Shown: in pieces, positions 3,662 through 63,354 of the stretch | Position numbering within the stretch: position 1 is the first letter of the stretch | How the letters are laid out: each line of letters begins with the position of its first letter | Source: Mycteria americana | Taxonomy: Eukaryota; Chordata; Aves; Ciconiiformes; Ciconiidae | Assembly: GCF_035582795.1 (NCBI RefSeq) | Contig: NC_134382.1 | Location: 10,420,501-10,484,500 of the forward strand | Direction: 5' to 3' | DNA length: 64,000 nucleotides | The notes under the pieces: generated by a model | What the model was told of the DNA's origin: nothing | Database searches by the model: none | What the model saw: only the letters and a program-made list of their open reading frames with translations | Position numbers and translations under genes: made by a program

Positions 3662-3831
3662 GTGTAAATACTGTGACAGGTCATTCAGCATTTCCTCCAA
3701 CCTCCAGCGGCATGTTCGAAACATCCATAACAAGGAGAAGCCATTCAAATGTCACCTGTGTAACCGATGCTTTGGGCAGCAGACCAACTTGGACCGACAT
3801 CTTAAGAAACACGAACACGAGAATGTTCCAG
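3662..3831 (+). CDS. PRDM16: PRDM16 exon: last two C2H2 zinc fingers
   Basis: The 170-bp exon runs from the acceptor ttttcag to the donor GTAGGA and starts with the last base of an Arg codon. It encodes two fingers: C-x2-C-x12-H-x4-H (CKYC ... HVRNIH) and C-x2-C-x12-H-x3-H (CHLC ... HLKKH), joined by the linker NKEKPFK. These finish the second DNA-binding cluster of the family. It ends after ENVP in phase 1. Confidence 0.96.
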
Positions 3832-9800: not shown

Positions 9801-10139
9801 TCGAGTAGTTGGAGGGATGGGCGTCATCCTAGCACGTGGGTGTAAATTTAGACCTGCTGGCAAGGTTCTTAGCCCAGGCCAAAGGATACCGGCAGTCCAG
9901 TGCTTCCCGTATGGTTAGAAGGTGCTGTGCTTCACACGGTTTACTGTAGCCTGTCCTGTGCGTGTATTCACACGTGTCCTCTGCATTGCTCTCTTCTCCT
10001 CCAGGCTTATGCAATGATGCTGTCCCTGTCTGAGAACGCTCCCCTCCACACGTCCTCCCAGAACTCTCTGGGTGCTTGGTTGGACATGGCAGGAGCAGCT
10101 TCAGAGTCGGGGACCTTTAACCCCATCAACCACCTCTGA
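3662..10139 (+). CDS. PRDM16: PRDM16, C-terminal part (five coding exons, joined)
   Basis: Join 3662-3831, 4644-4818, 6074-6304, 7281-7455 and 10005-10139; 886 coding bases ending in TGA, about 294 residues of a roughly 1,276-residue family protein. PRDM16 is a nuclear zinc-finger regulator of the PRDI-BF1/RIZ family, known for roles in brown-fat, haematopoietic and craniofacial programmes. Visible here are the last two C2H2 fingers (CKYCDRSFS... and CHLCNRCFG...), then a serine-rich segment, an acidic stretch ([12 protein letters not shown]), and a conserved tail with the [18 protein letters not shown] and INHL-stop signatures. MECOM (PRDM3) shares the fingers, but the tail and the ARHGEF16/MEGF6 neighbours favour PRDM16. 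The PR domain and first finger cluster lie to the left of the window. Confidence 0.95.
4644..4818 (+). CDS. PRDM16: PRDM16 exon after the zinc fingers
   Basis: The 175-bp exon has acceptor ctccctcag and donor GTAGAC. It encodes [13 protein letters not shown]..., a Ser/Asn-rich segment with the conserved motifs [14 protein letters not shown] and NSEMNQAST. It ends with the first two bases of an Arg codon. A TAG directly after the donor would truncate any unspliced reading. Confidence 0.95.
4819..6073 (+). other. PRDM16 intron
   Basis: AT-rich intron of 1,255 bp. It contains a TATG/TACA-rich patch near 5,920-5,970 and a strong polypyrimidine tract (6,025-6,072) before the acceptor. I see no other feature in it. 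Confidence 0.85.
6074..6304 (+). CDS. PRDM16: PRDM16 exon with acidic region
   Basis: The 231-bp exon has acceptor atttcag and donor GTGAGG. It encodes [14 protein letters not shown]..., then a run of Asp/Glu ([15 protein letters not shown]), [10 protein letters not shown] and [10 protein letters not shown], ending ...SFDHTRR across the splice. The acidic tract is typical of the PRDM16/PRDM3 C-terminal region. Phase 2 on both sides. Confidence 0.95.
6305..7280 (+). other. PRDM16 intron
   Basis: Intron of 976 bp between two well-defined PRDM16 exons, without convincing coding potential. A short stretch near 6,830-6,880 (gcctcagtttccc) recalls an old MIR/L2-type repeat but is too short to call. 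Confidence 0.75.
7281..7455 (+). CDS. PRDM16: PRDM16 penultimate coding exon
   Basis: The 175-bp exon has acceptor ttggtacag and donor GTAGGT. It encodes [19 protein letters not shown], then [17 protein letters not shown], and ends RQAKNQ in phase 0. This block is one of the most recognisable parts of the PRDM16 C-terminus. Confidence 0.95.
7456..10004 (+). other. PRDM16 last coding intron
   Basis: Intron of 2,549 bp with low to moderate GC. It holds a 73-codon open frame at 8,136-8,357 with no recognised homology and no phase-0 acceptor that would join it to the preceding exon, so I do not call it. The rest shows no feature I can support. Confidence 0.75.
10005..10139 (+). CDS. PRDM16: PRDM16 last coding exon
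   Basis: The exon has acceptor cttctcctccag. It is 45 codons in phase 0: [19 protein letters not shown] ... [12 protein letters not shown] followed by TGA at 10,137-10,139. The ending NPINHL matches the family C-terminus, which confirms frame and stop. Confidence 0.96.
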   Translation, partial: AYAMMLSLSENAPLHTSSQNSLGAWLDMAGAASESGTFNPINHL

Positions 10140-12601
10140 GAGGTCAACAAGGCACTGGCCAGGGTCCAAGCGAGGAGGCGGTGGTGCTGCAATTATCCTA
10201 GCAAAAATCCTAGCAAGCAGAAGATGGATGAGAGGGCCTCAGGGAGTCGTCTGGACTTTTGGCTGAGAAGGAAACCTGTTGCATCCGACCTACAAGTCCT
10301 GCATTTTTATCTGTCCAGAGTCTTCATTTCTAATTTATCAGAATGAACCTCTCCAAAACTGGATCACCCTGATGCAGCCCTAGGATTTCACAGTCTATAG
10401 GAATAGCGTGAGCAAGACACGAATTGCAACAGTGCAATCGAGTATTGGCCCCTCTAACATCACAAAACAGTATCACTGAGCCAGTAAAGCCTGCGTATAA
10501 ATGAACGCTTGAAACCATTCGGTAGCATATCCTTTCAATTCAGCTGAATAGTGAAGTAATAAGGAAAGAGAGCCAGGCGTGACCTATCCCTGGTGCAATT
10601 CTGACACAGTCACTGGAGTTATACCAGGGAAGGGTAAATTCAACCCATGTAATTGACCCCAAAAAGAATTTGAAATTCTGTGCTCCCACGGAAATACCGT
10701 CCTGTCTTTGTTCCCAACAAAACATATTAGCACAGTGCAAAGCTTCTCGAATGCGAGGCCACGTTGCCTGCGGTCATGATGCACCACATGCAGTGTCCCG
10801 GTTGAGAAATCTTCAGCCTGGAGCATTGCTGAGGTTGGGGTTATTGATGTATCATGCGAATATGTGATTCACGGTCATCAGCTGTGCCCTGAATGCCCTT
10901 CTGTCTGTGCCTATGCTGCAAGGTTAAGAGTGCTTTCCATCTCTGCTAGTGCCTGTGAGCCCAAGCTGCTGCTTGGACTTGAAGTAGCCAGAGTGTTTCA
11001 GAAAAAGCCATGCTCAGCAAGTCTGCTGGGGAGGGGTGCGGTGGCCTGAGTGCCCCGCCACTGAGCTGCTGACAATGCTTGGACTTCCCCAGTCAGAGAG
11101 GTCCCGGGGTGCAGCCTTACCTGGAGAGCGTAGCTGTGCGTGGGAAAGCGCGTGGTGGGCCTCTCGCCTTAAGAAGGGCAATTCGGGCACATCTTCTAAT
11201 TTATCTCCCAGGGTTTTTTGAGAGTGGCATCCTTTCAGTGTTGATAGTATCTGGGAATTGTGGCAGAAATTTCTGACTCGTGCAGTTGTTCTGGTATGCT
11301 GGATGGTTGCTTATGCATCGCACACTGCTATTTGGCCTATAATTTAAGTAGAAAGATTAAAACTTCCTTGCTTCAGCAACCTTAGGGGTACAGCCTTCTA
11401 TTCAAGCACATAGCGAAGAATCAAATTCTCTCTCTGACTCTAAAATTGCTCGCAGATATTTTATGAGTGGTTTTAAATCGCTTCAAAGTCTCATCTTCTT
11501 TACTGATACAAAGCAGCCTCCAGAAATACTGTGATGGTTACGCTATTCTACATTGCAATTACAATCTGCTGTTGGGGCAGCGATTTTGCAGGTAAAGCTG
11601 AATTACAGAATAGTCAGGAAAGCAATTGGACCTTGCAAAGGATAACATTGGCTACACAGGTAAAGTTTAGAATGTGTGTCCTGAGAATTTTCGAATTACA
11701 GCATCTAAAAATTAGAAGTGCCGAGGACTGGACTGCTGCTAGCACCGAGCGAAAGCCCGTGCCTCTGCATCTGGCCCATTGCAGTTCTGCATCAGCAGCC
11801 TGCTGGGAGTCTGGAGGTGCTCTGGCAGCCTGGCTGTGTGAAGATTGCATTCAGAGCCAGTGGAGCCGAGAGGAACTTTTCCATTAATTTCAGCATGATT
11901 TAGTACTGGGTGTGCTTCTAGTAAGTATTTTGTCAGGCAGTAACTGCTTGCAGAACTGTGTTAATGGCCGATTTCAGAGACACAGCACGCAGTTGTCGGT
12001 ATATCTGCCTGTACGTACTTGACGTGCAGAGCCTCTCTGCCTGCCCGGTATGGACAAGAGCAGAGGGAGGCTTCGGTGCCAGTCCAGTGTGGAGAAGCAC
12101 AACGGGGAGGCCTCATTCCAGCATGCTAAAACAAAGGAAACAGCTACTCAAATAGAGCGGCGGTTGTGTTAGGAACGATACCTTTGCAATTCGCTCTTTG
12201 CACCCAAGAGCGCATGTGAGGCTGTTTTTAGATAGCCAGGAGCCTCAGACTGTCCCCGGAGGAAAGCATCTAGGGTAGCTTTGGTACAGAAGGAGCAAAA
12301 GGTAAATTAGCAGCATCAGTGTATTTTCCAAGAAAATTTACCCTTCCTTTTTGGTTTTCCACAACACCCTGTGAAAGTGCCCAAGGCTCTGAGACCAACA
12401 GTCAGCGTAACCCGAACTGCTTCATCTCTTGCACAAAGCTCGTGGTGGATGGAGCCCGAGAGCTGGCCCTGCCACAAGGAACCAGTCTCTGCGAAGGAGA
12501 CGGGCGCTCCCGTCCCAGCACATCGCCTCTGCTGCTGCTGCAGTACAGCCCTGCCCAGGCGCTTGGCCTTTAAATTATTCCCACGGGGGCCAACTGAAAA
12601 T

Positions 12602-12607
12602 AATAAA
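12602..12607 (+). terminator. Possible internal AATAAA poly(A) signal
   Basis: AATAAA lies within the identical core of copy 1 and recurs in copy 2 on the minus strand (33,781-33,786). In both places it is in the sense orientation of the adjacent gene. Whether either is used is unknown. Confidence 0.35.
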
Positions 12608-13080
12608 AGAATTGTTTCTTTTCCTGATGGAATTTATTTTAATCTGTATATAACTTGTAATTTTTTGCTAATTCTTTTCTTATTTTATTTCTTCCTTAAC
12701 AGTATTTTTTGCATTAGATATCATTATTGTGAAGAAATAATGTTAATATAAGTATGTAGTGAAGGACCAAAATTGTGTAATTAAGGTTGTATGTTGTATG
12801 ATTGATAACCAGGGAGTAGGAAGATTTTGTCCATGTGCCAAATGACCCTGATCAATCCTGCTCGTCTTGCTGCCGATTCTCCAGACAATCATATCTTTTG
12901 TTACATTTGCCTTTAAGTGACCGTTGCATTAGACGAAGGTTTCTATTTATTTCCTTGGCCGGTTGGAAAGCAAACGCAGCCTCCACCAGAAAGCGAGCAG
13001 CCCCTCCCCGCGTGCCCTTCCACCCAGCACAGGGCGAGCAAAGTGCCGGCTAACGACCCGGGAGCCGTCGGGTGCAGCTG

Positions 13081-13131
13081 TGGGGGCCGGCAAGTGAAGC
13101 CACCGTGCCGGCAAGTGAAGCCACCGTGCCG
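13081..13131 (+). repeat. 21-bp tandem pair within copy 1
   Basis: Two consecutive units gccggcaagtgaagccaccgt. Copy 2 has the same pair but with 'cgatg' in place of 'tgaag' in both units, so the variant is shared within a copy and not between copies. Confidence 0.85.
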
Positions 13132-15613
13132 CGTGTCCCACCGGCAGCCCCTGCCATCCGCCGGGACTGAGGTGCAGACCCGGGAGCTGCGGGACGTGGG
13201 GCCTCTCCCGGGCGCTGCAGCCCTGGGAGGGAGCAGCCGACAGAGCCGGGGGCCAGCGGGCGACTCTGCCGAGGGGATGTGGCACGGCAGAGCTGGCGGC
13301 CACGCTGGGTCCTTGGCGGACTCGCTCTTCGCAGCAGCAGGGGTGCGCGCCGCGCCCTGCCCCGGGAAAGCCTCCGGCTTGCGAGCCCTGACCTGCGCGG
13401 CCAGCTGCCAGCTTCGCTCCCCGGCACACGCGGAGAGACTCTTCCAGCGAGCGCTCGTGGGGCCGGGGCCCGTCGCTGCCAGCACGGCCCGGAGGAGCGC
13501 TCGGCCCCGATGGGACTGTCCGGCCCTGCAGGTTCCCAGACCCTGCTCCAGGAGAGCACGGAAACGTAGCCCGGCCTTAAGCATCGGGATGGATCGGTCC
13601 TGTCCCGTTACAGCGTGAAAGCCTGAGCTGCAGCTCCGTGGCTCCTGGAGTATCTGCTTGGAGTAAACCGTACGTCTGAGCGTCGTCGTGATAGGGACCG
13701 CAGCGCTGTCTGCCTTGTTGGAACAAGATCTGTGGGTAATAGTAAGTGTTTGCGTGCTCTGACCCCATGTTTTGTTCATCGTTGAAGCAATCTTTGAAGA
13801 GGTCGGCATCACGCTCCTCGGCGTGAGCAGGTAACAGAGCAGCCGAAGGAGCAGCAGTGAGCTGGTCTCCACCATGCGGGCCAAGCACTGAGAAATACAA
13901 ATGTTGCTGTGGGGATTTATGTGGGGTATACGTGGGCTTCCCTTCAGTATCTCGGCCCTCCGTCCGTTGCGTGGTTCCTTCAGGAGCAGGGTTTCTCAGC
14001 AGCTCCTCGCTCTGAGCTTGCGCGGTCGCCGTCTCCCTCGCAGGGCTGTCCCTGCTCCCCGTGGCTCTGCAGGAGCGAGGGCTCCTCCTGCGGCGTGGTG
14101 CTGCCAGGGGACGGGCAGGTACAATCCAGCCAGGGATTACGGACGTTAAAAATCTAGGTTTTAAAATCATGAAATGATTTTTTTCTTTTCATATTTCCTA
14201 ATTCAGTTTTCCTCCCGTTTTCTCTAGCTGGTGTCTCTGTTTGTTGTAGGATCTCCCGACTCCTCTAATTTAGCACTGATTACGAGTTTTAATTTTTCCA
14301 CAGTTAAATAAACAGAAAGCCTCACTGAATCTCTGTTTATCTTGTAGCTTTCACTGAATTGCACTTGAAATGCGTTGCAGCTCTTAGCAGGCGTTTAGTT
14401 TTTGATTTGCTGTTGTAGACAAAAGCAATCCCTTATTTCGAAGGATGTTTCCCGAGAGGTGCGCGTGTTGAGGAGGGTTCTGCCATCAGAGCGCAGGTTG
14501 CTTCCCAGCGTCGGTGGTGGGAAAGGTCTGGGTCCCCTTGGCTTCGGTGGGACGTGGAGCGCTCGAGGCCATCCGACGCCACGAACGCTGTGCTCAGGAT
14601 CCACGGCGCAGGTGCCACGCAGCGGTGACCGCAGTACGGCCCGCTGTTTGTTTGAAAGCCAGGGCCCCACTCGAGGTGTGATTGAAACCAAGAATATTTG
14701 TGTAGGATCTGTTTATTAAAAGTATTTTCACATCTCATAGCCATATTGCCACGCGGCAAGGAGGAGAGAATGGGAGAAGCCCTGTGAGTTTTTTGTATAA
14801 CCAGATAAGGTTGATGGCCGCTGGCTGCTCCCGGCTGTTGAGCGCTGCGGAGGTGACGGTACCCCGAGAAGGGTCCTCGCTTCTCCTGAATGCGACTTTG
14901 ACCGCAGATAGATCTTTCTGCCTGAGCTAGTTAGAGAGGAGAAAATGGGTCTGGTGTACGTGCTTTCCCTTTCTCTTGCCGGCTCGGAGACTGGCAGGCA
15001 GTCCTGGCGCGAATCGCTGTGGCCGACGCGGAAAGCCGAAGGCGCAGCACGGCTGCCGCGGCGCTGAGCGTGCCGGTGCACCGGCTTCTCCCGCGGGACG
15101 TGCCGAGCGCACGCGGGTCGGCAGCGCCTGCGTTGCTGTTTGGTGCGGGCGGGTGTTCCTGCTGGGCAGCGGCTGCTCCGGGTGCATGCCTTGAAAACGT
15201 ATGGGGGCCGGCGGGGTCCTGCGCTTCACAGGCTGCGGCAGAAGCGAGGCGATGCGCAGGGCTCCACAGGAGCAGCCGAGTGCCAGCAGCAAGGCCGAGC
15301 CAAACGGGGCGAAACAGCAGAACACGAGCCGAGTTTGCTCAGCTGCATTCCGGGACAAAACACAAAGCTTGGCTTCTGCCTTGCTTAAAACAGACTAGTG
15401 GAAGCTTTCGATTTCTCCCTAATCAGCACTTAGACTTTCAATAGACGTTCTTGAAAACGGCTTCTTTTTCACTTCATCCGAAGCATTTCGAAAAGCACTT
15501 GCACAATGACATGAACATGTTTGACTCTAAGCATCAAAGCACTGGATTGTGAGCCCCCCTCCCCTCAGCCGAGTTCAATCTACTGACTTACATTCGATTT
15601 TTACGTGCTGTAT

Positions 15614-21336: not shown

Positions 21337-24300
21337 GTGAGTTTTGCGCCCGCTGTTACCCGATTGCTGTCGGGCGAGGATCGAGCCCCCGCTTTCCCCG
21401 GTGCTGAGCTGCTGGCGGGGGGTCTGCAGAGCCCTTTTCCTGCAGCTCCTGGCAGTTACAGAGCTGTGTGAGCCCGGCGTGGAGCTGGCGGGGCTCGCTG
21501 AGCCTGGTGACGCGACTTGTGCCTTGGGAAGCCTGCACGTTACCAGCAGATGCTGCAGGTCCCCGGAGAGCCTGGAAATAGCGACATGGCTTTCGTGGGG
21601 AGTATAACTGGCTGCTCCGAGGTTCCCGCTTGTCAACAGGCGGCTGCGGGCATGTTTGCAGGGTGGGGTCGGCCGGGTGTGTGGCTCCGAGGTGCTGGTT
21701 GGTTGCGCACAACCGTGGGTGAAGCAGGTCTGGGGAAAAGGAGACTCCAGTGCAGGCAAAGTCCAGGTGTGAGACAGATAGATGTGAAAGGCAGCAGCAT
21801 AACTACAAAATGGTTTAGATCGTGGCCCTGATAAGGCGAGGTGAAAGCTGAGTCACTTCGGTAAGGCAAACAAAAGCTCAGACAAAAATCGGGCTGAAAG
21901 AACAGGGTGATACTTGCTAACCGGCCGTGCAGGTAACTTCTCCCATTTCCTGAAGGAGCTCAGTGCTTCCCAGGGCCACAGAAATAACTGCAGCGCGTTC
22001 TCCCTTCTTCTTCTTGCAGAAGACCTTTGGGCGGAGGCGGGTGCAGAAGCGTGGCGGCTCGTTCAAGGACCGTGAGTGCTGCTTCCCGTCTTCCCGAGAG
22101 CGACAGCTCCGGCGTGCCCTCTGCCTCGCGGGGCACCGGGGCGCTTCCCAGCGAAGCAAATCCCTAGAAGTGCCACGCGTGCTGCTCTTGTCGCTGGCCT
22201 GGGGCCATTGCTTTTGCCTCCGCTTCCCCACCTGCAAGGGGAGCGTTGCAGCCCTGCTTTCCCGCTCCCCGGGGCGTGATGATGTGATGATGCCGTGCTC
22301 GCAGCTGCAGCGCTCCCAGCTTTGCTTGCTCCGGGCCAACACGGGAGGGCTGCCCGCGGCACGCTGGCTGCGGGAAGCTGTCGGGAGCGGAGCTGCTGGT
22401 TAACCGGTGCCGTGCAAAGTCCGACCTTGGCGGGGAGGTGCTGGCCCTGGCTTGCCGGCACTCGTGGCAGGGCTCTTGGCTGAGGGCGTGAGGCAGTGGT
22501 GGGAAGGGAAGCCCGTGGGCCGTAGCTGGGAGAGGCTTCGCTGACCTCTTGCCTTTTCCTCTGCAGAGCCCCGGCTGTATCAGGAAATCCGTGAGAGAGG
22601 TCTGAACTCCGTCAGCCATGAGTCAGACGAAGATTTGCTGGAGGAACCCATCCCAGAAGAGCCGTCCCCTCTGGATGCCACTATTGTGGTGCAGAGCTAT
22701 CGCCCGGCGCCGGTGACCTGGAGCCAGCTCCCAGAGGTAGGGGCAGCAGCCCAGCCCGGAGGGTCCGAAAGGCCCCGCTTGCCCTCGCCACGGGCTGCTC
22801 CTGCGCTCACGCCACGTTGCAGCACAGCTGCGTGTATTTTAAAAGCCATCTGAGCTGCCGGACAAACCGTGAGTGGATAATTCTGCAGCACTAGTCTTCG
22901 CAATGGGATGTTCTGGGACCACCTGGCTGGGACATGCAGGTTCCTGCCCAGGCTCGTCGGGATGCCGGCGGAGCTGCTGCGGTCGGGCTTGTAGAGGTTC
23001 ACCCGCAGAGGGGGGCAAGGCAGGCGCTCCCGCTGGGTGTTCCCTGCCGGCCCTTGGGGAGAACAATCTCCTCCTGCGGAGCGGCGTCTGCTCAGCGCCG
23101 GAGGGCGATGGGCCGTGGGGTGGGGGGTGATGGGCTGTGGGGCTGCGGGCGATGGGCTGTGGGGTGGGGGGTGATGGGCTGTGGGGCTGCGGGCGATGGG
23201 CCGTGGGGCGGGCGGAGCCCCTGGCCGCACTAGGTCATGCCAGGACCACCGGCCGCGGCTGATGCCGGCCTCCCTGCAGGTGCTGGAAGCGGGCATCCTG
23301 CAGAGGATCTCCCCCGAGGAGCGCAAACGGCAGGAGGTGAGAGGAGCCTCGGAGGTGCCCGGGAGCGCGGCGTGAACGGCGAAGGCAGCGGGGACGCGCG
23401 TGACTCTGTCCGGGACCCCCCGCGGGGGTGGGCTGGGAGCAGGGCTGCCTTCAGGCTCGGGTTCGGCTCCTGCGTGCGGGGTTTGTGGTGCGGCCGCTTC
23501 CAGCAGCGCTGGGACTGGGCAGCACTGGGAGGGCTCACCCGCACGTCTTGGAGGGGACGCGGGCAACTCCTTCGGGTGCTGATGGGAAATAGCTGCTGGA
23601 AGGGAAAACATCTTAGGGCTGCGTCTCACTAATGAGTGAAAGTCCTAACACATGCTGAGGTCATTGGTGGAGGGCAGGCAACGCATCAGATGAGGGAATG
23701 CCGTTCCGTTGGAGCTCATTCATTTCCAGTGGCTTCGTACCAAACCAAACGTAAATAAGATACGGCAAGTTTTAATTCACGGCCTTGCTTAGTCAATAAT
23801 AATCCACTTGGTGTTGTTACATCCTCGCTGCCCTGCTTTTTCAGGCAATGTTTGAGATCATCACTTCCGAGTACTCCTACATACACAGCCTGAGTGTCCT
23901 GGTGTGCCAGTTCATGCGGTCGGAGGAGCTGAAGGAGACCATGACTCAGACGGAGCACCACCACCTCTTCTCCAACATCAGCGACATCCTGATGGTCGGC
24001 ACCAGGCAAGTGGCAGCCATCGGCGTGGGGTGGGACCAGGCAGGCCTGGAGGACTCACTCTGGAGCTCCTTTTATTTGCCGTGTAAAAACAACCATCCCT
24101 TGGATTCGCTGAAGGTACCGACGCATCCCTCCTGTTGCCCTTTTCCTAGTGCCTCGTGTCGCGGCACGCTCCCCTGCAGCGTGCTGCGCCGGCTTCCTGC
24201 TGCCACGTGCTCGGGACCCGAATGTCTAGTTGAAGGGTCTGTTACCCTGACACCCAGTTTTTTAATGGGTTACAATGGTGGTGCTCAGTCGTGCAGCTGC

Positions 24301-30300: not shown

Positions 30301-31068
30301 GGGCTGCGGCTCCCGGCCGTGCCTTCTCACTGGGTCCCTGCTGTCCGCTGTCCTCCGCAGATCTGAGCCAAGTGGAGATAACCCGCGCGTACCTGGCCAA
30401 ACAGGCGGACGAGATTTCCCTGCAGCAGGCTGACGTTGTGCTGGTGTTGGGTGGAGAGGATGGTGAGTGTCAGCGAGCGGGGAGCTGTGGCCGGGGAAAG
30501 CTTATCTTGGGCAGAGCTATGGTGGGGGGAAAAGCTTCAGTGATCCCAGTGAACTGGGATTTTAGCAATTTTCGGAAGCTTCCAGGAAGCCACTGGCAGG
30601 GTCCCTGTCGCTGGCCGGTGCTGTGGCCCAGCAGATGGCAGCGGGTCCCCGGAGGCTGACGGAGGTGGCACTGCCACGGGCGGCTGCTGCGTCGCTCACC
30701 GGTGATGCTGTACGCAGGCTGTGGCTGGCAGCCGGCAGCAGAGACCTCAGAAGCGAGAGCAACAACCCCAGAACAGGCAGTAAATGAGAAACCTCCTCCC
30801 CTGCAAAGCTTTCCGGGGACACCTCTAGCTGGCAGCCCGGTGGGAAGGGGAGCGGGCCAGCCTTCCACGCACGTCCCCAGGAGCAGTGGCCCTTCCTCCT
30901 TGCGTGACCAGCTCTGTTCTTCTCCTAGGCTGGTGCTGGGGCGAGAGGCTGAGGGATGGTGAACGGGGCTGGTTTCCCCAGTCCTGCGCTCGGCAGATCA
31001 CCAGCCGCGCGGCGGTGGAGTGCAACGTCCGCCGGATGGAGCGGCTGCGGATAGAGACCAACGTGTAG
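20782..31068 (+). CDS. ARHGEF16: ARHGEF16, complete coding sequence (14 exons, joined)
   Basis: Join 20782-21336, 22020-22071, 22567-22736, 23280-23336, 23845-24005, 25138-25290, 25908-26037, 26750-26824, 27862-27954, 28655-28809, 29194-29403, 29792-29865, 30361-30462 and 30929-31068; 2,127 bases, 708 residues, close to the 709 I recall for human. It is a Dbl-family Rho guanine-nucleotide exchange factor (ephexin subgroup) that loads GTP onto Rho-type GTPases in the cytoplasm and at the membrane. The order is a disordered Ser/Pro-rich N-terminus (1-200), DH domain (about 279-470), PH domain (about 490-625), SH3 domain (about 637-697) and a C-terminal class I PDZ-binding motif ETNV. The ATG at 20,782 sits in gccatcATGt and is the only good start in the exon. 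Confidence 0.96.
21337..22019 (+). other. ARHGEF16 intron
   Basis: Intron of 683 bp, GC-rich. It ends in a strong polypyrimidine tract (tcccttcttcttcttgcag). No other feature seen. Confidence 0.85.
22020..22071 (+). CDS. ARHGEF16: ARHGEF16 coding exon 2 (residues 186-202)
   Basis: A 52-bp basic micro-exon, [17 protein letters not shown], ending with one base of the next codon; donor GTGAGT. Its Lys/Arg-rich composition and SFKD motif match the family. Confidence 0.93.
22567..22736 (+). CDS. ARHGEF16: ARHGEF16 coding exon 3 (residues 203-259)
   Basis: A 170-bp exon encoding [14 protein letters not shown], an acidic stretch ([15 protein letters not shown]), and [21 protein letters not shown] just before the DH domain. 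Acceptor ttttcctctgcag, donor GTAGGG, phase 0 at the end. Confidence 0.95.
23103..23216 (+). repeat. G-rich minisatellite, 44-bp higher-order unit
   Basis: About five alternating 22-bp half-units of type gatgggccgtggggtggggggt and gatgggctgtggggctgcgggc, so roughly 2.5 copies of 44 bp. It lies in the intron 64 bp upstream of coding exon 4. The runs of four to six guanines could form G-quadruplexes. Confidence 0.9.
23280..23336 (+). CDS. ARHGEF16: ARHGEF16 coding exon 4 (residues 260-278)
   Basis: A 57-bp exon, exactly 19 codons in phase 0 on both sides: [19 protein letters not shown]. It forms the approach to the DH domain. Acceptor ctccctgcag, donor GTGAGA. Confidence 0.94.
23845..24005 (+). 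CDS. ARHGEF16: ARHGEF16 coding exon 5: start of the DH domain, GC donor
   Basis: A 161-bp exon starting [19 protein letters not shown], the first conserved helix (CR1) of the DH domain, through [15 protein letters not shown] to MVGT. The only donor that keeps the frame is AG|GCAAGT, a GC-AG intron. It joins AG to the C that opens exon 6, giving Ser then FFEDLEKR. An ordinary GT donor is absent at the needed position. Confidence 0.92.
24006..25137 (+). other. ARHGEF16 intron with CpG-rich core
   Basis: Intron of 1,132 bp opened by GC. Its middle (about 24,340-24,900) is CpG- and GC-rich, unlike the flanks, and may be a small intragenic CpG island. Open frames there on both strands have no recognisable homology. 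Confidence 0.75.
25138..25290 (+). CDS. ARHGEF16: ARHGEF16 coding exon 6 (DH domain, CR2)
   Basis: A 153-bp exon encoding [26 protein letters not shown], then [19 protein letters not shown], the second conserved DH region. Acceptor ctctccttag, donor GTGAGT, phase 2 at the end. Confidence 0.95.
25908..26037 (+). CDS. ARHGEF16: ARHGEF16 coding exon 7 (DH domain, CR3)
   Basis: A 130-bp exon encoding [19 protein letters not shown], then [20 protein letters not shown] and LLLD. The motif [12 protein letters not shown] is the hallmark CR3 helix of Dbl-family exchange factors that contacts the GTPase. Acceptor cctgttccag, donor GTAAGT. Confidence 0.97.
26038..26749 (+). other. ARHGEF16 intron
   Basis: Intron of 712 bp between coding exons 7 and 8; no feature recognised. 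Confidence 0.85.
26750..26824 (+). CDS. ARHGEF16: ARHGEF16 coding exon 8 (DH domain)
   Basis: A 75-bp, 25-codon exon, [25 protein letters not shown], in the last DH helices. Acceptor cattctag, donor GTGAGG. Phase 0 at both ends. Confidence 0.93.
26825..27861 (+). other. ARHGEF16 intron
   Basis: Intron of 1,037 bp containing a long pyrimidine-rich stretch (26,985-27,080) and a short duplicated cttccttttgtccc near 27,355. No exon or RNA gene recognised. Confidence 0.8.
27862..27954 (+). CDS. ARHGEF16: ARHGEF16 coding exon 9 (end of DH, DH-PH linker)
   Basis: A 93-bp exon encoding [18 protein letters not shown], then [13 protein letters not shown], the end of the DH domain and the linker to PH. 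Acceptor tttttctag, donor GTGAGG. Confidence 0.95.
28655..28809 (+). CDS. ARHGEF16: ARHGEF16 coding exon 10 (start of PH domain)
   Basis: A 155-bp exon: [19 protein letters not shown], then [14 protein letters not shown], the first strands of the PH domain. Acceptor gtttcag, donor GTAAGG, ending with AG of a Ser codon. Confidence 0.95.
29194..29403 (+). CDS. ARHGEF16: ARHGEF16 coding exon 11 (PH domain with low-complexity loop)
   Basis: A 210-bp exon: [20 protein letters not shown], then a GC-rich Pro/Ser/Gly/Ala loop ([20 protein letters not shown]), then [20 protein letters not shown]. The loop lies between PH strands and is the part least like the mammalian protein as I recall it. Acceptor ttgctgtag, donor GTGAGT. 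Confidence 0.94.
29792..29865 (+). CDS. ARHGEF16: ARHGEF16 coding exon 12 (PH C-terminal helix)
   Basis: A 74-bp exon: [19 protein letters not shown] then TTPKG. The Arg-Trp-Ile motif is the conserved C-terminal helix of the PH domain. Acceptor ctctgccag, donor GTACCG, phase 1 at the end. Confidence 0.93.
30361..30462 (+). CDS. ARHGEF16: ARHGEF16 coding exon 13 (start of SH3 domain)
   Basis: A 102-bp exon: [20 protein letters not shown] then [13 protein letters not shown]. This is the RT-loop half of the SH3 domain ([17 protein letters not shown] in place of the usual ALYDY...DELSF). Acceptor gtcctccgcag, donor GTGAGT. Confidence 0.95.
30929..31068 (+). CDS. ARHGEF16: ARHGEF16 last coding exon (SH3 end and PDZ ligand)
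   Basis: A 140-bp coding part: [18 protein letters not shown], then [14 protein letters not shown] and TAG at 31,066. The GW...GERL...GWFP pattern completes the SH3 fold. The ending T-x-V fits a class I PDZ-binding motif; the human protein ends similarly. Acceptor ttctcctag. Confidence 0.96.
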
Positions 31069-32262: not shown

Positions 32263-33159
32263 AAACACGTGTTCTCCTTGCCCAAAAAGCAACGGCGTGC
32301 AGCGTCAGCAGCTCAGTCCCTGGGTCTAAGCTGTTAGTGGGGCCGGGCGTCCCTGAGCGTGACAGCTCGGGGTCAGACTGACGCCAAGGAGCCAGGCTTC
32401 CCCATCACAAACTCTAAAAAGAAAGCTTCAGTCTGATGGCAGCATCCTTCTGGCCCCTGCTTGTTCTCGACGCATGCACATCTCGGGAACAATCCTTCAG
32501 AATAGCTCACTAAAAATCTGCTGTCGGTTGCAGCACATTTCAAATGTAAGTGACTGAGAGAGACCAGAGAAACAGAAACTCAGTGAGGCTTTCTGTTTAT
32601 TTCTCTTAACTGTGGAAGAATTAAAATTTTTCATCAGTGCTAAATTAGAGGAGATGGGATCCAAAAAGAGAGACACGAGCTGCATGAAAACGGGAAGCAA
32701 AGAAACTGTATTAAGAAATACGAACAGGAAAAAAATCATGATATAAAAAAGTATCAGTACAGAGTTGCTGCGGTCCCCTGCTCAGACGTACGGTTTACTC
32801 CGGAGCTGCAGCTCAGGCTTTCACGCTGTAACGGGACAGGACCGATCCATCCCGATGCTTAAGGCTGGGCTAGGTTTGAGTGCCCTCCTGGAGCAGGGCC
32901 ATCGGGGCCGAGGGCTTCTCTGCACCTCAGTCCCGGCAGATGGCAGGGGCTGCCGGTGGGACACGCGGCACGGTGGCATCGCTTGCCGGCACGGTGGCAT
33001 CGCTTGCCGGCCCCCACAGCTGCACCCGACGGCTCCCGGGTCGTTAGCCGGCACTTTGCTCGCCCTGTGCTGGGTGGAAGGGCGCGTGGGGAGGGGCTGC
33101 TCGCTTTCTGGTGGAGGCTGCGTTTGCTTTCCAACCGGCCAAGGAAACCTTCGTCTAAT

Positions 33160-33460
33160 CATAGAATCATTAAGGTTGGAAAAGACCTCTAAGATCATCT
33201 AGTCCAACCGTCAACCCAACTCCTCCATGCCTACTAACCCATGTCCCGCAGTGCCACGTCTCCACGTTTTTTGAACTCCTCCAGGGATGGTGACTCCACC
33301 ACCTCTCTGGGCAGCCTGTTCCAATGCTTGGCCACCCTTTCAGTAAAGAAATTGTTCCTAATATCCAATCTAAACCTCTCCTGATGCAACTTGAGGCCAT
33401 TTCCTCTCGTCCTATCGCTAGTTACTTGGGAGAAGAGACCGACACGCACACGGTGGTAAG
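33160..33460 (-). mobile_element. CR1 retrotransposon fragment (3' end)
   Basis: Avian CR1: it opens on the plus strand with catagaatcat, the reverse complement of the ATTCTATG-type CR1 3' terminus, then ggttggaaaagacctctaag, atcatctagtccaacc and gggcagcctgttccaatgc. It is 5'-truncated, as most CR1 copies are. It interrupts copy 2 between gtctaat and gcaacgg; copy 1 has the unbroken site at 12,927/12,928. No clear target-site duplication is visible, which is usual for CR1. Confidence 0.93.
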
Positions 33461-33780
33461 GCAACGGTCACTTAAAGGCAAATGTAACAAAAGATATGAT
33501 TGTCTGGAGAATCGGCAGCAAGACGAGCAGGATTGATCAGGGTCATTTGGCACATGGACAAAATCTTCCTACTCCCTGGTTATCAATCATACAACATACA
33601 ACCTTAATTACACAATTTTGGTCCTTCACTACATACTTATATTAACATTATTTCTTCACAATAATGATATCTAATGCAAAAAATACTGTTAAGGAAGAAA
33701 TAAAATAAGAAAAGAATTAGCAAAAAATTACAAGTTATATACAGATTAAAATAAATTCCATCAGGAAAAGAAACAATTCT

Positions 33781-33786
33781 TTTATT
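33781..33786 (-). terminator. Possible distal MEGF6 poly(A) signal in copy 2
   Basis: Minus-strand AATAAA within the identical core. It would serve a MEGF6 transcript that extends past 35.7 kb. It is the counterpart of the signal at 12,602. Confidence 0.3.
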
Positions 33787-34020
33787 ATTTTCAGTTGGCC
33801 CCCGTGGGAATAATTTAAAGGCCAAGCGCCTGGGCAGGGCTGTACTGCAGCAGCAGCAGAGGCGATGTGCTGGGACGGGAGCGCCCGTCTCCTTCGCAGA
33901 GACTGGTTCCTTGTGGCAGGGCCAGCTCTCGGGCTCCATCCACCACGAGCTTTGTGCCAAGCGATGACGGGGCCTGGCTCAGGAGGGCTGTTGGTCCGGT
34001 AGCCCCGGGCCCTCGCCGGG

Positions 34021-35955: not shown

Positions 35956-63354
<27,399 letters not shown>

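Follow-up and report, generated by a model that had tools for sequence, protein, structure and literature searches.

The inverted repeats at FLNA-EMD undergo recurrent inversion, and ultraconserved elements retain hundreds of identical bases across distant species. One study describes 12 primate X palindromes whose inverted arms are >99% identical and are kept alike by intrachromosomal conversion (PMC8981503), and another gives mammalian conversion tracts as usually a few hundred base pairs long and rarely >1 kb (PMC3961182). Here we describe a pair of short inverted repeats that is a candidate for ectopic gene conversion and is compact enough to be read easily. It lies on an apparent avian microchromosome, in a 64,000-nucleotide stretch (10420501-10484500) of contig NC_134382.1 of Mycteria americana (hereafter, the window). 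No paper on this repeat was present among the literature matches listed.

A first-pass annotation of the window had reported that 12431-12927 is the reverse complement of 33461-33957 and that the flanks of this core are diverged to approximately three-quarters identity. Self-comparison of the window and alignment of the two arms, two of the checks proposed there, bear this out. The core copies match at 497/497 bases between exactly those coordinates, with 0 differences, whereas the flanks are diverged (77% identity for 14174-14379 by BLAST). A perfect match of 497 bases is far beyond chance. Four pairs of inverted repeats of at least 60 nt were detected in the window by self-comparison, in agreement with BLAST, and every one of them pairs arm 1 with arm 2. 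In a genome search that scores best candidates only, the core was found at exactly two places in the 1.35-Gb assembly (279 contigs), and block 4, the old part of the duplication (Table 1), was likewise found at two. The contig measures 11.8 Mb, others in the assembly are as long as 223 Mb, and these sizes and the CR1-like repeats are in keeping with a bird genome that has microchromosomes. Because the core and block 4 each occur at two places in this search and the stretches confined to arm 1 at one, a dispersed transposable element was rejected as the source of the repeat. The exact core pattern had 0 matches in the viral contigs and genome contigs of public collections, and the exact block 4 pattern had 0 matches in the viral contigs.

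Both copies of the core retain the same CTG run and two T6 runs, and all 12 CpG sites (24 CpG positions of 497) are kept. A protein-coding core was considered and set aside: its reading frames are all short, and frames on one strand overlap those on the other. A structured RNA was also considered for the core and rejected, given folding z-scores of -0.58 and -0.28 and no Rfam support; no Rfam family was matched anywhere in the window at gathering thresholds.

Table 1. Coordinates of the repeat arms and of neighbouring features in the window (gene and CR1 names are those we presume)
Feature	Positions	Strand	Remarks
PRDM16 frame end, ...NPINHL + stop	10125-10139	+	zinc-finger patterns at 3663-3812
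Outer flank, arm 1	12376-12430	+	35/55 aligned positions identical to 33958-34013
Core, arm 1 copy	12431-12927	+ (PRDM16 sense strand)	matches arm 2 at all 497 bp
GGACCAAA	12764-12771	+	contains GGACCAA, miR-133 seed match; not rare by chance
Block 2, arm 1	12950-13178	+	222/229 identical to 32919-33147; contains 21-bp tandem repeat
Arm-1-only stretch	13180-13493	+	no second copy in genome search
Block 3, arm 1	13494-13681	+	three aligned pieces, 7 differences in 139 positions
Stretch essentially arm-1-only	13700-14150	+	no second copy in genome search
Block 4, arm 1	14174-14586	+	old, diverged part of duplication; AATAAA at 14307
ARHGEF16 C-terminal end + stop (31066-31068)	31036-31068	+	RhoGEF pieces
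Block 4, arm 2	32333-32739	-	partner of 14174-14586; AATAAA on - strand at 32601
Block 3, arm 2	32780-32918	-	partner of 13494-13681
Block 2, arm 2	32919-33147	-	partner of 12950-13178
CR1-like retroposon tail	33157-33450	-	absent from arm 1, which has the empty site near 12928-12932
Core, arm 2 copy	33461-33957	-	497 bp identical to arm 1
Outer flank, arm 2	33958-34013	-	diverged homology to 12376-12430

The two inverted arms, which are spaced 20 kb apart, are colinear over approximately 2.2 kb and form a mosaic in identity (arm 1, 12376-14586; arm 2, 34013 down to 32333 when read on the PRDM16 strand). The alignment adds to the earlier description two further high-identity blocks and, in arm 2, an inserted CR1-like element. 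The three pieces of block 3 were chosen by hand from the arm alignment; arm 1 carries stretches of 22 bp and 27 bp there that are missing from arm 2, and 13541-13638 is identical at 93/98 positions. In block 4, 77.8% of 374 ungapped positions are identical (K2P 0.27), or 67.5% by BLAST counting gaps. Arm 1 is the fuller copy of the two. Because the genome search gave no second copy of either 13180-13493 or 13700-14150, arm 2 probably lost these stretches rather than arm 1 gaining them.

Tandem repeats occur in and beyond the arms. The units of the 21-bp tandem repeat (13086-13131 and 32966-33011) are identical within each arm, and the same two positions distinguish the units of one arm from those of the other; for this reason they have probably been homogenised within an arm. 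Elsewhere in the window, the MEGF6 region holds a tandem array of approximately three 51-bp units (56284-56459, 96% matches) and a 35-bp tandem repeat (50722-50811, 98% matches), and a 22/44-bp GC-rich minisatellite lies inside the ARHGEF16 gene (23099-23212).

The names PRDM16, ARHGEF16 and MEGF6 are presumed assignments, made from motifs and gene order. A Pfam comparison of ten frames outside the core found RhoGEF pieces in three frames, one of them slightly below the cut-off, and no match in the other seven. The - strand carries EGF-type patterns between 63322 and 35974, which we assign to MEGF6. Arm 1 starts 2.2 kb downstream of the PRDM16 stop codon, a position that the first-pass annotation does not point out, and arm 2 sits between the convergent ARHGEF16 (+) and MEGF6 (-). 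The first-pass annotation had suggested that the arms could support inversion of the ARHGEF16 block. Since PRDM16 (+), ARHGEF16 (+) and MEGF6 (-) follow the human order and orientation, the assembly appears to carry no fixed inversion relative to human.

The two edges of the identical tract differ in character. At the outer edge, a 1-base gap is followed abruptly by diverged sequence at approximately 64% identity. The anchored score of this outer flank (12) was reached by 0/1,500 random GC-matched window pairs, for which the best score was 10.3, and by 0/100 shuffles; with the first 8-9 bases removed by hand the score is 9, which was reached by 1/1,500 random pairs. Local scores over 60, 100 and 200 bp were reached by 0/200 shuffles. 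Over 400 and 800 bp they were reached by 17/200 and 22/200 shuffles, respectively, and are not clearly above chance, so the homology of the outer flank is short and a long outer homology was rejected. A genome search with 12200-12430 matched only itself, as expected of a short diverged stretch. The inner edge has no such clear boundary. The first base inward of the core already differs (12928 versus 33460), and the CR1-like insertion in arm 2 and a 10-bp extra stretch in arm 1 are found at this edge. Past the insertion site, with one base different, identity continues for approximately 60 bp to the first block 2 difference at 33087. The retroposon was considered as a barrier to the tract, and this reading was dropped because, barring the 10-bp indel and the insertion site, identity continues for approximately 60 bp on its far side.

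We hypothesize that the arms stem from an old inverted duplication and that recent interlocus gene conversion made their cores identical, and we consider this the probable explanation. It is favoured because old homology lies in register on both sides of the core, because the outer edge is abrupt, and because the core carries fewer differences than the adjoining blocks. The sequence that bounds the core is more diverged on both sides: the outer flank matches at 35/55 positions over 55 bp only, and the inner side differs by 3.8% in blocks 2 and 3 and then by 22% in block 4. Under this hypothesis, an old inverted duplication of approximately 2.2 kb would have left arm 1 downstream of PRDM16 and arm 2 between ARHGEF16 and MEGF6. 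The arms would occasionally pair as repair templates, and a short tract of one would overwrite the other. An earlier round of conversion would have reset blocks 2 and 3, now 3.8% different, and the latest round would have homogenised the 497-bp core. On the outer side, this latest tract would stop at the diverged flank; on the inner side, it would stop somewhere from the last core base to the first block 2 difference, approximately 60 bp past the insertion. Conversion as the homogenising step, together with the number and order of its rounds, is what we infer from these patterns. A tract of 497 bp would fit the lengths of mammalian conversion tracts.

The first-pass annotation had offered either recent gene conversion or very strong constraint. 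Conversion is the better supported of the two by the register of the core, its abrupt outer edge and its difference count, and constraint is disfavoured. Constraint in this sense means that very strong purifying selection on both cores would have preserved their identity from the old duplication onward, with no exchange between the arms, for example if a PRDM16 3'UTR element were also used at a second site. We regard this as unlikely. The sudden drop in identity from 100% to approximately 64% where the core ends on its outer side argues against it, as does the absence of change at any of 497 sites in either copy while block 4 reached a K2P distance of 0.27.

The difference counts bear on the same choice. 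The core has 0 differences in 497 positions, in contrast to 14/368 (3.8%) in blocks 2 and 3. Nine of these 14 differences touch CpG sites and the core is CpG-poor; the expectation was therefore modelled with separate CpG and non-CpG rates taken from blocks 2 and 3. The model predicts 11.0 differences in the core; treating the duplicated change in the 21-bp tandem repeat as a single event lowers this to 9.1. If both arms are free to change, the probability of observing 0 is 1.7e-5 to 1.2e-3; it rises to 0.004 to 0.019 if one arm is wholly frozen while the other is neutral. A simpler weighting gives 6e-6 to 3.4e-3, although values based on blocks 2 and 3 say nothing if both arms are frozen.

The insertion in arm 2 provides a separate comparison. 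From its 3' tail, we take it to be an avian CR1 element. It is a high-copy sequence (3,831 first-look candidates in the genome, of which the best 40 were scored), and its reading frame had no Pfam match. Arm 1 reads straight through TAAT at the insertion point, versus TAAT and TAAG at the ends in arm 2, and because arm 1 carries this empty site the arms appear already to have been separate loci when the element inserted. The age of that event rests on 1 to 7 differences in 293 positions. The divergence of block 4 and of the outer flank likewise points to arms that were separate before the core was homogenised.

Compared with the majority of the 29 nearest copies fetched, the insertion differs at 7/293 positions, of which five are common to one copy (L032), one to another (L027), and one is a private edge position. 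L032 1501-1787 corresponds to contig positions 10363941-10364227, 90 kb from the insertion on the same contig. Among the 29 copies compared, four of the five letters shared with L032 occur in no other copy and one occurs in two more. When L032 was used as a genome query, its best match was the arm 2 insertion (95%), and the differences between the two are spread along the whole element, a distribution that would fit a shared minor subfamily and not a conversion patch. The five shared letters are probably inherited subfamily letters, the insertion and L032 may each come from a minor subfamily, and perhaps only 1-2 of the seven differences postdate the insertion.

If all seven postdate it, 24 differences would be expected in the core, and the probability of 0 is 1.5e-5 when both arms are free, or 6e-4 when one is frozen. 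Should only 1-2 do so, the expectation is 3-7 differences, with probabilities of 0.11-0.02 and 0.23-0.08, respectively; all of these values allow for sampling error. The insertion was rejected as a firm clock because five of the seven differences are common to the copy 90 kb away, with one more common to L027. The clock tilts toward homogenisation of the core after the insertion, without proving it, and is by itself compatible with constraint.

The position of arm 1 speaks for some constraint. Its start 2.2 kb past the PRDM16 stop codon makes it plausible that arm 1 is the distal 3'UTR of this gene or its flank, in which case some selection on arm 1 would be likely. The + strand of 10140-14700 has ATTAAA at 11356 and AATAAA at 12602, in the core, and at 14307, in block 4. 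AATAAACAGAAAGCCTCACTGA is kept at 14307 (+) and 32601 (-) although block 4 is otherwise diverged, and its retention in both arms might reflect use for polyadenylation. On the + strand of 10140-14700, arm 1 contains the only GGACCAA, which lies in the core, and the only TGTANATA, which we take to be a Pumilio-type motif. One study places a GGACCAA miR-133a site in the mouse Prdm16 3'UTR and also names miR-128 and miR-1/206 sites there (PMC3708806). These motifs are weak evidence for constraint because each recurs in the window above expectation: GGACCAAA is found 5 times versus 2.4 expected, and TGTANATA 5 times versus 1.8 expected. Matches to the miR-128 and miR-1/206 seeds are absent from 10140-14700. 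Moreover, selection on arm 1 alone would not hold arm 2 identical, the two T6 runs and 12 CpG sites have all been kept, and the folding scores and the Rfam comparison described above do not favour constraint.

A second, recent inverted duplication, which would have placed another core over the old relic, would explain the clean outer edge, which resembles that of a fresh copy. However, colinear diverged homology flanks the core on either side and is in register with it. The incoming copy would need to take the exact place of the old one, and such a replacement amounts to conversion; we consider a second duplication quite improbable. An error of assembly or polishing that erased differences between the two copies is similarly improbable: the evidence comes from a single assembled sequence, but blocks 2 and 3 keep their 14 differences, a 300-bp insertion difference lies close by, and contigs of up to 223 Mb suggest long reads.

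Gene conversion could also be maintained because the match between the arms is useful, although we give this extension very little credence. The + strand of arm 2 is perfectly complementary over 497 nt to the possible distal PRDM16 3'UTR, and conversion might conceivably preserve either a trans-antisense pair, with this strand reached by ARHGEF16 read-through, or a spare PRDM16 regulatory tail with a miR-133-type site on the MEGF6 strand. If arm 1 is indeed PRDM16 3'UTR, copying from arm 2 could introduce mutations to, or remove them from, a regulatory tail. Short-read variant calls in both cores would be unreliable.

Set beside the known systems, the locus shares with ultraconserved elements a run of hundreds of identical bases, but the identity here is between two copies within one genome. 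As at FLNA-EMD, inverted repeats flank a gene-bearing spacer; the arms here are shorter than in that system, and one orientation is seen in a single assembly. The likeness to sex-chromosome palindromes (PMC8981503) lies in inverted arms kept alike by conversion. Unlike the primate X palindromes described there, with their >99% identity, the arms here are approximately 2.2 kb long and identical in one patch only (497 bp identical, block 4 at 78%, outer flank at 64%), so that near-identity does not extend over most of the arm, and they lie on an 11.8-Mb contig not known as a sex chromosome. Interlocus (non-allelic) conversion tracts in segmental duplications (PMC3961182) likewise show identity over a few hundred base pairs inside a diverged duplicate; here the evidence is from one genome and the inner edge is not sharp. 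What the candidate would present is a known process, ectopic gene conversion, at a new locus.
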